A program made the translations under genes and the position numbers. A DNA stretch of 64,000 nucleotides from Pseudomonas berkeleyensis (lineage in GTDB: Bacteria > Pseudomonadota > Gammaproteobacteria > Pseudomonadales > Pseudomonadaceae), in NCBI RefSeq assembly GCF_014109765.1, contig NZ_CP059139.1, positions 372,001 through 436,000 on the forward strand, in the 5' to 3' direction. Positions 45,032 through 53,052 of this stretch are shown piece by piece (position 1 is the first letter of the stretch; the number at the start of each line of letters is the position of its first letter). Under the pieces are notes generated by a model. It made no database searches and had not been told where the DNA came from. It saw only the letters and a program-made list of their open reading frames with translations.

Positions 45032-45040
45032 GTTGGCCCT

Positions 45041-45076
45041 ACACGAAACGCCCGGCATGTGCCGGGCGTTTCGTGT
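45041..45076. terminator. Bidirectional terminator with perfect 16-bp stem
   Basis: ACACGAAACGCCCGGC-ATGT-GCCGGGCGTTTCGTGT, perfect arms, 10 bp past the ccpA stop and between convergent ccpA and aguA. T runs are short (GTTT), so strength rests on the stem. Confidence 0.75.
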
Positions 45077-45123
45077 AGGGCGGGTGAAACCCGCCGAGGG
45101 TTGGCGGGTTTCACCCGCCCTAC
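45075..45123. repeat. GTAGGGCGGGT...ACCCGCCCTAC long palindrome
   Basis: Perfect inverted repeat with 21-bp arms (GTAGGGCGGGTGAAACC-CGCC and its complement) and a 7-bp loop. Its right arm is the same unit as 8858-8878. It overlaps the preceding terminator by 2 bp and ends 6 bp before the aguA stop. Confidence 0.85.
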
Positions 45124-45128
45124 ATGGT

Positions 45129-49546: not shown

Positions 49547-50926
49547 TTACACGGTATGCAGGTACCAGTTGTACTCGAGGTCGGAGATGGTGGTCTCGAA
49601 CTCTTGCAGTTCGGCTTCCTTGCACGCGACGAAGATGTCGATGTACTTGGAGTCGATGTATTTGTTCATCACTTCGCTGTCGTCCAGCTCGCGCAGGGCA
49701 TCGCGCAGGTTGTTCGGCAGGCTGGGTTCGAGCTGCTCGTAGGAGTTGCCTTCGATCGGCTCGCCCGGTTCGATCTGGTTGGTCAGGCCGTGGTGGATAC
49801 CGGCGAGGATCGAGGCCAGCATCAGGTAGGGGTTGGCATCGGCGCCGGCCACGCGGTGTTCGATGCGCACGGCATCCGGGCTGCCGGTGGGGATGCGAAC
49901 GGCCACGGTGCGGTTGTCCAGTGCCCAGCTCGGCGCGTTGGGCACATAGAACTGTGCACCGAAGCGGCGGTAGGAGTTGACGTTGGGGCAGAGGAACGCC
50001 ATCGACGCGGACATGGTGTCGAGAATGCCGCCGACGGCATGGCGCAACGAAGAGTTCTCCAGCGGATCTTCGGCAGCGAAGATGTTCTTGCCGGTCTTCT
50101 TGTCCAGCAGCGAGATGTGCACGTGCAGACCGTTGCCCGCCTGGCCCGGGTAGGGCTTGGCCATGAAGGTGGAGTCCATCTCATGGTCGTAGGCGATGTT
50201 CTTGATCAGGCGCTTGAGCAGCAGGGCGTAATCGCAGGCCTTGATCGCGTCTTCGACGTGATGCAGGTTGACCTCGAACTGCGCCGGGGCGCTTTCCTTG
50301 ACGATGGCGTCGGCCGGGATGTCCTGCTCCTTGGCGGCTTCGAGCATGTCTTGCAGGCAATCGACGTACTCGTCGAGGTCGTCGATCAAGTAAACCTGGG
50401 TGGAGTGCGGGCGCTTGCCGGAGATCGGCGAACGCGGCGGCTGCGGACGGCCGTTCACGTTCTCCTGGTCGATCAGGTAGAACTCCAGTTCGAAGGCTGC
50501 GCAGATACGCAGGCCCAGTTCGTCGAACTTCTGCACCACCTGGCGCAATACCTCGCGCGGGTCGGCGAAGAAAGGCGTGCCGTCCAGCTCGTGCATGGTC
50601 ATCAACAGTTGCGCGGTCGGGCGCTTCTGCCAGGGTTCGTTGCACAGGGTATTGGGGATGGGGAAGCAGATACGGTCGGCGTCGCCGATGTCCAGACCAA
50701 GGCCGGTGCTTTCGACGGTGGAACCGTTGATGTCGAGCGCGAAGAGCGAGGCGGGCAGATTGATGCCTTTCTCGTACACCTTGTGGAGGGCGTTTCGGTC
50801 GATGCGCTTGCCGCGCACCACACCATTCATATCTGCAATAAGAAGGTCGACGAACTGGACCTCAGGATGTTCCTTAAGGAACGCGTTCGCTTCGTTAAGC
50901 TGAACGGCACGCGGGGGTACCGACAT
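49547..50926 (-). CDS. spuI: Glutamine synthetase family gamma-glutamylpolyamine synthetase SpuI
   Basis: A 459-residue glutamine-synthetase-fold ligase that attaches glutamate to a polyamine amino group using ATP. The start at 50926 (MSVPPRAVQLNEAN) has AAGGTG upstream; ten in-frame codons before it are unlikely. The metal and catalytic motifs are AFELEFYLID, the FEVNLHH segment, NGLHVHISLLD, and the NRTVAVRIP / RIEHRVAGADANPYLMLA region. It is divergent from spuB with a large dyad between them. Confidence 0.93.
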   Translation of the reverse strand: MSVPPRAVQLNEANAFLKEHPEVQFVDLLIADMNGVVRGKRIDRNALHKVYEKGINLPASLFALDINGSTVESTGLGLDIGDADRICFPIPNTLCNEPWQKRPTAQLLMTMHELDGTPFFADPREVLRQVVQKFDELGLRICAAFELEFYLIDQENVNGRPQPPRSPISGKRPHSTQVYLIDDLDEYVDCLQDMLEAAKEQDIPADAIVKESAPAQFEVNLHHVEDAIKACDYALLLKRLIKNIAYDHEMDSTFMAKPYPGQAGNGLHVHISLLDKKTGKNIFAAEDPLENSSLRHAVGGILDTMSASMAFLCPNVNSYRRFGAQFYVPNAPSWALDNRTVAVRIPTGSPDAVRIEHRVAGADANPYLMLASILAGIHHGLTNQIEPGEPIEGNSYEQLEPSLPNNLRDALRELDDSEVMNKYIDSKYIDIFVACKEAELQEFETTISDLEYNWYLHTV

Positions 50927-51113
50927 GATGCAACACCTTTTTGTTAAATATATCAATCATGCGACTGCATGGGTGTGAGTCAATCTGAAACGCACTTTAC
51001 TGTCAAGCTGGCCCCATGATGCCCTGTAGTGGGGCGTGATGGCCATTTTTGGGGCATTTCAAGGCCTTTCAGGGGGGGGCAGCTGGCGATCTTTCTGGGT
51101 GCTCAACGGGGTG

Positions 51114-51154
51114 TGTTCAATTTTTTACAGAGCTATTGTGTAAAAAAATGAACA
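51114..51154. promoter_or_regulatory. Large dyad operator (PuuR/PauR-like) in the spuI-spuB intergenic region
   Basis: TGTTCAATTTTTTACA (51114-51129) and TGTAAAAAAATGAACA (51139-51154) are inverted repeats with 15 of 16 pairs matching, spaced by 9 bp. Each arm ends in ATGAACA, the conserved end of the E. coli PuuR site AAAATATAATGAACA as I recall it; PauR is the Pseudomonas PuuR homologue. It is the best-matched dyad in the window and sits between divergent polyamine genes. Confidence 0.7.
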
Positions 51155-51201
51155 AGGCTAAGCTCGGTTCAAACCCATAACAGCAATAATACGGGTGTCT
51201 C

Positions 51202-51576
51202 ATGTTTCGCCTGCCGATTCTCGGCGTCAGCGCTTGTACCAGAACCACCGGTCACGCCCTTTCTCCCCTCGCCGACGAGGTGAGCATTCGCTTCATGCGA
51301 GTGGGTGCGGGTGACATGTCCGCTATCGTCGAGGCACGGCAGCATTCTTCTTCGGCGGCTTCAGCGCCGCTCGGCATATTTTCTCGAGTCTTCATGTTAC
51401 CCGCTACCCTGCACCATAGCGCAGGTGGCGCCTCGCTGCTGCGTGGCGCACGGCCTGGCGCGGGCTGTGCAACACGCAAGCGTCTTGAGCTAGACACATC
51501 GCGCTTTGTTCGCGAAGGCGAAAGCTTTTCTTTCCGTGGAGTGAAAAGCCAGGTGCCGGAGGTGCTGCGCCCCTAG
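51202..51576 (+). pseudogene. spuA: Probable spuA remnant (N-terminus only)
   Basis: A 124-codon ORF beginning MFRLPILGVSACTRTTGHA. The first ~13 residues resemble the start of class I glutamine amidotransferase-like gamma-Glu-polyamine hydrolases (SpuA/PuuD), and spuA occupies this place between spuI and spuB in P. aeruginosa. The rest lacks the family's nucleophile-elbow, HPEW and other motifs and reads as low-quality coding sequence. The likely explanation is that spuA was deleted, leaving its first codons joined to unrelated DNA. It could instead be a leader peptide gene for spuB. Confidence 0.5.
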
Positions 51577-51693
51577 TAGCATCCACTCGAATATCTCGCC
51601 TTCTTCCAGGCCTTTGGTGAGGCTTGCAGGGAGAGGGCGGGGCAACGCTGAACCAGCTATAACCCTAGTTGGTTCTACAACCCTGAGGTCTCT

Positions 51694-53052
51694 ATGAGTA
51701 CCAAGTTAGACCAGCTCACGAGCTGGCTGAAAGAACGCAAAATCACCGAAGTCGAATGCCTGATCAGCGACCTGACCGGCATTGCCCGCGGCAAGATCTC
51801 GCCGACCAACAAGTTCCTCGACGAGAAGGGCATGCGCCTCCCTGAGAGCGTGCTGCTGCAGACCGTGACCGGCGACTACGTCGAGGACGACATCTACTAC
51901 GACCTGCTGGACGAAGCGGACATCGACATGTTCTGCCGTCCCGACGCCAATGCGGTCTTCGTCGTGCCATGGGCCATCGAGCCTACTGCCATGGTGATCC
52001 ACGACACCTTTGACAAGCAGGGCAACCCCATCGAGCTGTCGCCGCGCAACATCCTCAAGAAAGTGTTGCAGATGTATGCAGACAAAGGCTGGAAGCCCAT
52101 CGTCGCGCCGGAGATGGAGTTCTACCTGACCAAGCGCAACAGCGACCCGGACTTCCCGCTGGTGGCCCCGGTAGGCCGCTCCGGCCGTCCGGAAACCGGC
52201 CGTCAGAGCTTCTCCATCGACGCGGCGAACGAATTCGACCCGCTGTTCGAAGACATGTACGACTGGTGCGAACTGCAAGGCCTGGATCTGGACACCCTGA
52301 TCCACGAAGAGGGCCCGGCGCAGATGGAAATCAACTTCCGCCACGGCGACGCGTTGCACCTGGCCGACCAGATTCTGGTGTTCAAGCGCACCATGCGCGA
52401 GGCCGCGCTCAAGCATGACGTGGCGGCCACCTTCATGGCCAAGCCGATCACCGATGAGCCCGGCAGCGCCATGCATATCCACCAGAGCGTGGTCGACCTG
52501 AAGACCGGCAAGAACATCTTCTCCAACGAAGATGGGACGATGAGCGAGCTGTTCCTCCATCACATCGGCGGCCTGCAGAAGTACATCCCCGAGCTGCTGC
52601 CGCTGTTCGCGCCGAACGTCAACTCGTTCCGCCGTTTCCTGCCCGATACCTCGGCGCCGGTGAACGTGGAGTGGGGCGAGGAGAACCGCACCGTGGGCCT
52701 GCGCGTGCCGGAAGCCAGCCCGCAGAACCGCCGCGTGGAAAACCGCCTGGCCGGTGCCGATGCCAACCCCTATCTGGTGCTGGCAGCGACCCTGCTGTGC
52801 GGCTACATGGGCATGGTCGGCAACGTCAAACCAGGCGCTCCGGTGAAAGGCCGCGGTTACGAGCGTCGCAACCTGCGCCTGCCGGTGACCATCGAAAGCG
52901 CGCTGGAGCGGATGGAAGCCTGCAAGGACGCCGAGAAGTTCCTCGGCGAGAAGTTCATCCGCGGCTATGTCGCGGTCAAGCGTGCCGAACACGAGAACTT
53001 CAAGCGCGTGATCAGCTCCTGGGAACGCGAGTTCCTCCTGCTGTCGGTTTAG
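51694..53052 (+). CDS. spuB: Glutamine synthetase family gamma-glutamylpolyamine synthetase SpuB
   Basis: A 452-residue paralogue of spuI. Motifs are VAPEMEFYL, AQMEINFRHGD, SAMHIHQSVVDL, ENRTVGLRVPEAS and RVENRLAGADANPYLVLAA. ATG at 51694 has CTGAGG upstream. It starts the plus-strand spuBCD-FGH run after the spuA remnant. The two synthetases probably differ in amine preference; sequence alone does not say which. Confidence 0.93.
   Translation: MSTKLDQLTSWLKERKITEVECLISDLTGIARGKISPTNKFLDEKGMRLPESVLLQTVTGDYVEDDIYYDLLDEADIDMFCRPDANAVFVVPWAIEPTAMVIHDTFDKQGNPIELSPRNILKKVLQMYADKGWKPIVAPEMEFYLTKRNSDPDFPLVAPVGRSGRPETGRQSFSIDAANEFDPLFEDMYDWCELQGLDLDTLIHEEGPAQMEINFRHGDALHLADQILVFKRTMREAALKHDVAATFMAKPITDEPGSAMHIHQSVVDLKTGKNIFSNEDGTMSELFLHHIGGLQKYIPELLPLFAPNVNSFRRFLPDTSAPVNVEWGEENRTVGLRVPEASPQNRRVENRLAGADANPYLVLAATLLCGYMGMVGNVKPGAPVKGRGYERRNLRLPVTIESALERMEACKDAEKFLGEKFIRGYVAVKRAEHENFKRVISSWEREFLLLSV

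Follow-up and report, generated by a model that had tools for sequence, protein, structure and literature searches.

Between the divergent polyamine genes spuI and spuB of Pseudomonas berkeleyensis lies an inverted repeat that is very probably a double operator of the XRE-cupin repressor PauR, which in Pseudomonas is orthologous to PuuR of E. coli. The first-pass annotation of this DNA had noted a resemblance to PuuR and PauR operators; the reading developed here, which is drawn from sequence comparison, gives that resemblance good support, in the form of a box found throughout the genus, of boxes of the same type before pauC and pauB3, and of a PauR gene in the same genome. In what follows, the window is the whole 64-kb stretch of DNA that was analysed, and the features that matter to the argument are collected in Table 1.

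To our knowledge the operator has not been described before for this strain. It is, however, known in kind: the PauR operator of the P. aeruginosa pauA1(spuI)-spuABCDEFGH region, known from PMC7901475 and reportedly from the work of Chou in 2013, involves the same gene pair, the same regulator family and the same intergenic region. Unlike in P. aeruginosa, spuA is decayed here, and the rightward operon effectively starts at spuB. The comparison also yields a genus-wide definition of the PauR box, TGT-W7-TGAACA, with two copies 25 bp apart at spu, which is useful for predicting the PauR regulon and for building putrescine sensors.

Table 1. Features of the spuI-spuB region, in positions of the window
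Feature	Positions	Strand	Evidence
spuI (pauA1), glutamine-synthetase-like gamma-glutamylpolyamine synthetase	49547..50923	-	open reading frame; name from the first-pass annotation and PMC7901475
Promoter-like site toward spuI, TTGACT-16-CATGAT	50956..50983	-	consensus scan
Rfam RF00623, Pseudomonas sRNA P1, containing the whole dyad	51019..51198	-	150.8 bits, gathering score 100, E 2.5e-31
Left arm of the dyad, TGTTCAATTTTTTACA; box as read on the other strand, TGTAAAAAATTGAACA	51114..51129	-	inverted-repeat and pattern search; conservation
Presumed spuA/spuB promoter, TTGTGT (51136-51141)-17 nt-TAAGCT (51159-51164)	51136..51164	+	suggested by conservation and spacing
Right arm of the dyad, PauR/PuuR-type box, TGTAAAAAAATGAACA	51139..51154	+	inverted-repeat and pattern search; conservation
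spuA remnant, 124-codon open frame, start kept, interior diverged, ended by TAGTAG (51574-51579)	51202..51573	+	
3' spuA remnant, same frame, through the old stop TGA (51649-51651)	51580..51651	+	90% identical to intact SpuA (locus L020, residues 231-250)
spuB, glutamine-synthetase-like, first intact gene downstream of the operator	51694..53052	+	open reading frame; family matches

The dyad

The two arms of the dyad are inverted, 16 nucleotides long and separated by a gap of 9, and they are complementary at 15 of 16 positions (94%), just as had been described. Some finer points of the first description need correction. Read outward, the right arm does end in ATGAACA, but the left arm, for which the same ending was claimed, has TTGAACA; and the formula given for the arms, TGTTCA-N6-ACA, should read TGTTCA-N7-ACA.

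Inverted repeats with at least 15 complementary positions of 16 and gaps of 0 to 20 start at four places in the 64-kb window, the dyad included; the other three are one at about 19598 and two adjacent long hairpins, with arms from about 45035-45043 and 45074-45082. These two adjoining hairpins, which together cover 45035-45125 downstream of a cytochrome-peroxidase-like gene, are probably ordinary terminators. In 60 dinucleotide shuffles of the window, dyads of such quality occur at a mean of 0.03 per 64 kb. Shuffling the 278-bp intergenic stretch or the 66 bp around the dyad, 5000 times each, never reached it, and these local shuffles keep the AT-richer composition of its surroundings; a chance origin was rejected on these results. 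A transcription terminator at this place was also considered and rejected, the dyad being AT-rich, without a downstream run of T, and absent from the output of a terminator scan.

Proposed action of the operator

According to PMC7901475, PauR and its relatives are repressors of the kind that binds core promoters. The same paper states that PauR of P. aeruginosa binds and represses the spu promoter region and is released by putrescine; in PAO1, a single PauR site governs pauA1 and spuABCDEFGH together through a palindromic motif, the targets also include pauC and PA2776, and each target gene is up in the mutant of the regulator (PMC7901475).

In the region studied here, each 16-bp arm would be one repressor box, TGTnnA-N4-TnnACA, best conserved in its run of A and in its GAACA end, and each would receive one PauR dimer; that PauR sits on these very arms in this strain is something that we infer. 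The two boxes face each other, 25 bp centre to centre, and the right box falls between the hexamers presumed to be the -35 and -10 elements of the spuA/spuB operon. The right arm starts inside the first hexamer and occupies most of the 17-nt spacer. Since the right box fills most of the promoter spacer, repression in the spuA/spuB direction would act by occlusion, PauR on this box blocking RNA polymerase at the promoter, and putrescine or cadaverine would release the repressor. The hexamers of this presumed promoter are weak, and it is absent from the output of a consensus promoter scan; in the alignment of 78 sequences presented in the next section they are almost invariant, with column identities of 0.88-1.0.

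In the first-pass annotation, the two arms would allow one regulator tetramer or two dimers to control both directions. The dyad coincides with the presumed spuA promoter, but some 190 bp separate it from the start of spuI, beside which a matrix scan revealed no second good box (best score 4.8 bits); control of both directions is a conjecture. The consensus promoter scan reported instead one site in the spuI direction, against 0.3 expected in shuffles, and the arms lie about 130 to 170 bp upstream of it; in the 78 rows, its TTGACT is conserved and its second hexamer is conserved in part only. The effect on spuI might be exerted on a longer transcript starting beyond the boxes, by looping, or through a weaker box that escaped recognition. 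The 36 bases that adjoin the spuI start (50924-50959) are near-invariant in the 78 sequences, but for one column. As for spuI itself, its family matches are of the glutamine-synthetase type, all of them under the cut-offs of the models.

Conservation at spu loci

Among the matches listed, there are 80 spuI loci in named genomes, and 77 of them have spuB as a neighbour. Together with the window these make up the 78 rows of the alignment; the loci L038, L041 and L042, which lack the spuB neighbour, are left out of all counts over 78 rows. The right arm is found letter for letter in 56 of the 78 rows, with column identities of 0.90-1.0. Most columns of the left arm are conserved at about 0.9, and the centre spacing is fixed at 25 bp; its variable columns are 51118, 51119 and 51129, at 0.38, 0.29 and 0.38. 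In six of the 78 rows (L031-L036), the left arm is replaced by unrelated sequence. These are six related loci, which keep a recognisable right arm and in which spuA is also cut down.

When the cores TGTTCA and TGAACA are both required, with at most one mismatch per core, dyads with 12 to 15 complementary positions of 16 are present in 27 of the 80 loci. From this pattern of conservation, it appears that near-perfect symmetry belongs to part of the genus, and that two facing boxes are the more general trait.

The box in the genome and in the genus

The pattern WWWWWWWTGAACA has four matches in the 5.65-Mb genome, two of which are the arms of the dyad, and its reversed control has none. The two remaining matches (L007 and L008) were discarded as polyamine sites, their neighbours being non-polyamine genes: as named from the translations, the first precedes a GbdR-like AraC gene, and the second lies between a branched-chain amino-acid carrier and a DUF599-like gene. 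Allowing up to two mismatches, the box TGTWWWWWWWTGAACA has 27 matches in this genome versus 13 for the reversed control. Besides the arms, there are 25 such matches, 16 intergenic and 9 intragenic according to a simple gene caller, and for one of the 25, at 291740, the gene that follows was recognised as a polyamine gene, pauC. This match was at first called intragenic, on account of an over-long divergent frame, and was re-examined; the other eight intragenic matches are left as called.

On the scale of the genus, exact copies of TGTWWWWWWWTGAACA are present in 78 of 99 Pseudomonas genomes and absent from 21, compared with 4 of 99 for the reversed control and 12 of 99 for a spacing control in which the box is longer by one base. 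In 76 of the 78 positive genomes, the box is either single or forms one pair 25 bp apart (10 pairs, counting the genome studied here), and genomes G026 and G060 have it at two distant places each. All of the 30 loci that were inspected adjoin spuI, with the closest arm 191-233 bp from its start.

PauR and its other targets

The first-pass annotation had noted that PauR is not encoded in the window; its orthologue is found 59 kb before it, at G000:C1:312192-312737, and is the best match to PuuR in the genome. It is 41% identical to E. coli PuuR over 179 residues, and its best NCBIfam match is PuuR, at 170.6 bits, under that model's cut-off of 211. Its neighbours, named from their translations, are an alanine-racemase-like gene before and a cytochrome-like gene behind; cycB is a conserved neighbour of pauR according to PMC7901475.

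In order to score boxes, a weight matrix was derived from 26 distinct spu arm sequences, leaving out 8 of the 20 distinct left arms that are unrelated or contain indels, and was applied to individual loci and to the window. With a score of at least 12 bits, a box stands before pauC in 26 of the 30 genomes examined, as against 10 of 450 shuffles; the remaining four score 9.7-10.2 bits. Before pauB3 such a box is present in 29 of 30, locus L196 being without one, and in 23 of 450 shuffles. For each gene 40 genomes were searched, of which 30 were scored with the matrix; they are related, so that the counts are not independent. Apart from one exception per gene (L149, L180), the distances of the boxes hardly vary. 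In the genome of the window, the pauC boxes score 23.4 and 11.7 bits and the pauB3 boxes 18.8 and 13.1 bits. The former (L097/L144) have the same orientation and a centre spacing of 41 bp, the latter (L129) are opposed with a centre spacing of 63 bp, versus 25 bp at spu. Through their relatives PuuC and PuuB of E. coli, we infer that pauC and pauB3 are orthologues of PauR targets of PAO1; the presumed counterparts of the P. aeruginosa targets pauC and PA2776 would then bear the same box here.

The expectation that the motif would precede other polyamine genes is thus borne out by pauC and pauB3 across genomes, and is thinly borne out within this genome, by 1 of 25 matches. Before its own pauR no box is found, the best score being 0.2 bits, although PAO1 is reported to have such a site. 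Six other glutamine-synthetase loci and three other pauB-like loci of the genome are without a site of fewer than four mismatches. Elsewhere, at G000:C1:2589610-2592828, a glutamine-synthetase paralogue is grouped with a pauB-like gene and the gene of a small XRE regulator, perhaps as a separate local amine-use unit.

Applied to the 10-kb puu locus of E. coli MG1655, the matrix places three of its four best sites at or between the starts of puuA and puuD, the region in which PuuR boxes were reportedly described by Nemoto in 2012. Like the spu boxes, these are A-rich and occur several to a region, two of the three ending in TGAACA, and in both systems a ligase gene and a hydrolase gene diverge. 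The E. coli boxes differ in that they lack the TGT end, score 11-15 bits versus 30-31 bits at spu, and all three point in the same direction, whereas the spu boxes face each other.

Alternative readings of the dyad

It is most improbable that the dyad is the site of another XRE-cupin or of an unrelated regulator. There are three more PuuR-like places in the genome (E 2.7e-11 to 5.4e-5), two of them beside glutamine-synthetase paralogues, but they are 22-35% identical to PuuR, versus 42% for PauR; L091 and L093, the two of these loci that were scanned, are without a site of fewer than four mismatches; and no targets are reported to be shared by XRE-cupins in PAO1 (PMC7901475). A second alternative comes from the small RNA P1, whose match covers 180 nt including the dyad, on the strand of the spuI direction; of 15 other spu loci that were scanned, 8 exceed the threshold of the P1 model, and both control loci fall short of it. 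The dyad might be a hairpin of this RNA, transcribed from the minus strand toward spuI, with arms conserved for base-pairing, a reading that we regard as unlikely. The consensus structure of RF00623 pairs the arms as its central stem, as an RNA, the dyad's plus strand has a better fold than its shuffled versions (z -3.0, with 3 of 200 as good), and P1 is said to have been seen on a Northern blot by Livny in 2006. At spuA of strain PA14, an antisense (class III) RNA of the minus strand, validated by Northern blot, figures in Table 2 of PMC3349714. RNAalifold, on the other hand, predicts no pair at the dyad from the 78 sequences, and among the 77 distinct rows pairing is lacking at arm positions 5 (45 rows), 6 (54), 7 (69) and 16 (47). 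In these 77 rows, 1 of 500 shuffles reaches the percentage of paired cells, 1 of 500 the covariation score, and none the six cells changed on both sides, all three being measures that related rows inflate; yet pairs with a change on both sides number two, which is matched by 335 of 500 shuffles, and five of the six cells consist of one pair type at one pair. Versions of the pairing slid by one or two columns have nine and eight such cells, and one of them scores 0.060 versus 0.038. The stem formed by the arms is therefore not one that is kept through paired changes (78 sequences, with 77 distinct rows in the shuffle test). Furthermore, the box stands without its partner arm at six loci, and before pauC the orientation is the same rather than opposed. 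Each arm keeps its own letters better than the pairing is kept, as is to be expected of a protein-binding site.

A combination of operator and small RNA is possible, if doubtful: a PauR operator that is also crossed by minus-strand transcription, P1 being either the leader of spuI or an antisense RNA controlled by PauR, and the operator acting both ways. It would then be a promoter block for spuA/B, and a road-block or promoter block for P1/spuI. RF00623 does overlie the operator in the spuI direction, and the PAO1 site is assigned to both pauA1 and spuABCDEFGH, with target genes up in the mutant (PMC7901475). Transcription of the minus strand at the dyad is plausible, because PMC3349714 tables an antisense RNA at spuA of PA14. 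The combination is weakened by the minus-strand TATTAT, for which no good partner hexamer could be seen by eye, and by the separate promoter-like site closer to spuI. Nor do we know of any start site for P1.

The conserved letters of P1 are those of the boxes and of the presumed spuA promoter. P1 coincides with the probable PauR operator and the presumed promoter, and the conservation captured by RF00623 may be that of DNA rather than that of RNA. The second half of P1, on the minus strand, contains another conserved block, at 51018-51057, with GCCC/GGGC flanks and without compensated pairs.

The decay of spuA

The first-pass annotation had placed the dyad between spuI and spuB, which is correct as to place but overlooks a decayed spuA: the frame next to the operator is a spuA remnant. 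Downstream of the operator, spuA is intact in 34 of the 78 rows, with 249-261 codons, and cut down in 44, including the window. A quick spuI tree requires 10 switches between the two states, and well-supported branches force no fewer than 8 of them; the tree is directionless, and loss is an easier direction than gain.

In the 44 cut rows, the frame that begins at the old start stays open for a median of 121 codons and a minimum of 44, and in 42 of them the other two frames are shorter. The window belongs to a clade of nine members in which net length differences are always divisible by three and all nine frames stop exactly 117 nt short of spuB. About 14 stop-making changes are expected in this clade, and none is found upstream of the common stop. 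Among the other 35 cut rows, two groups chosen by hand (12 and 7 rows) have 9.8 and 9.3 stop-making changes expected, a weaker test in that their frames end at different places. In the nine-member clade dN/dS has a median of 0.86, and the three codon positions have taken up substitutions almost equally; consequently, the protein itself appears to be drifting.

The simplest reading of these frames would be selection for translation of the spuA remnant. We lean slightly towards a scenario in which spuA was lost repeatedly, and in which a frame of some 120 codons has been kept free of stops and frameshifts as a translated placeholder before spuB, while its sequence drifts almost neutrally. Translating such a placeholder could counter Rho-dependent polarity, allow coupling, or make the remnant a translation-reporting leader. 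It would be a decayed gene whose reading frame seems kept just to be translated.

A narrow literature search, over titles and the beginnings of abstracts, returned no published account of the spuA remnant. In P. putida, spuA is rearranged to another cluster, according to PMC10606097. The genome of the window has another spuA-like hydrolase gene, 44% identical.
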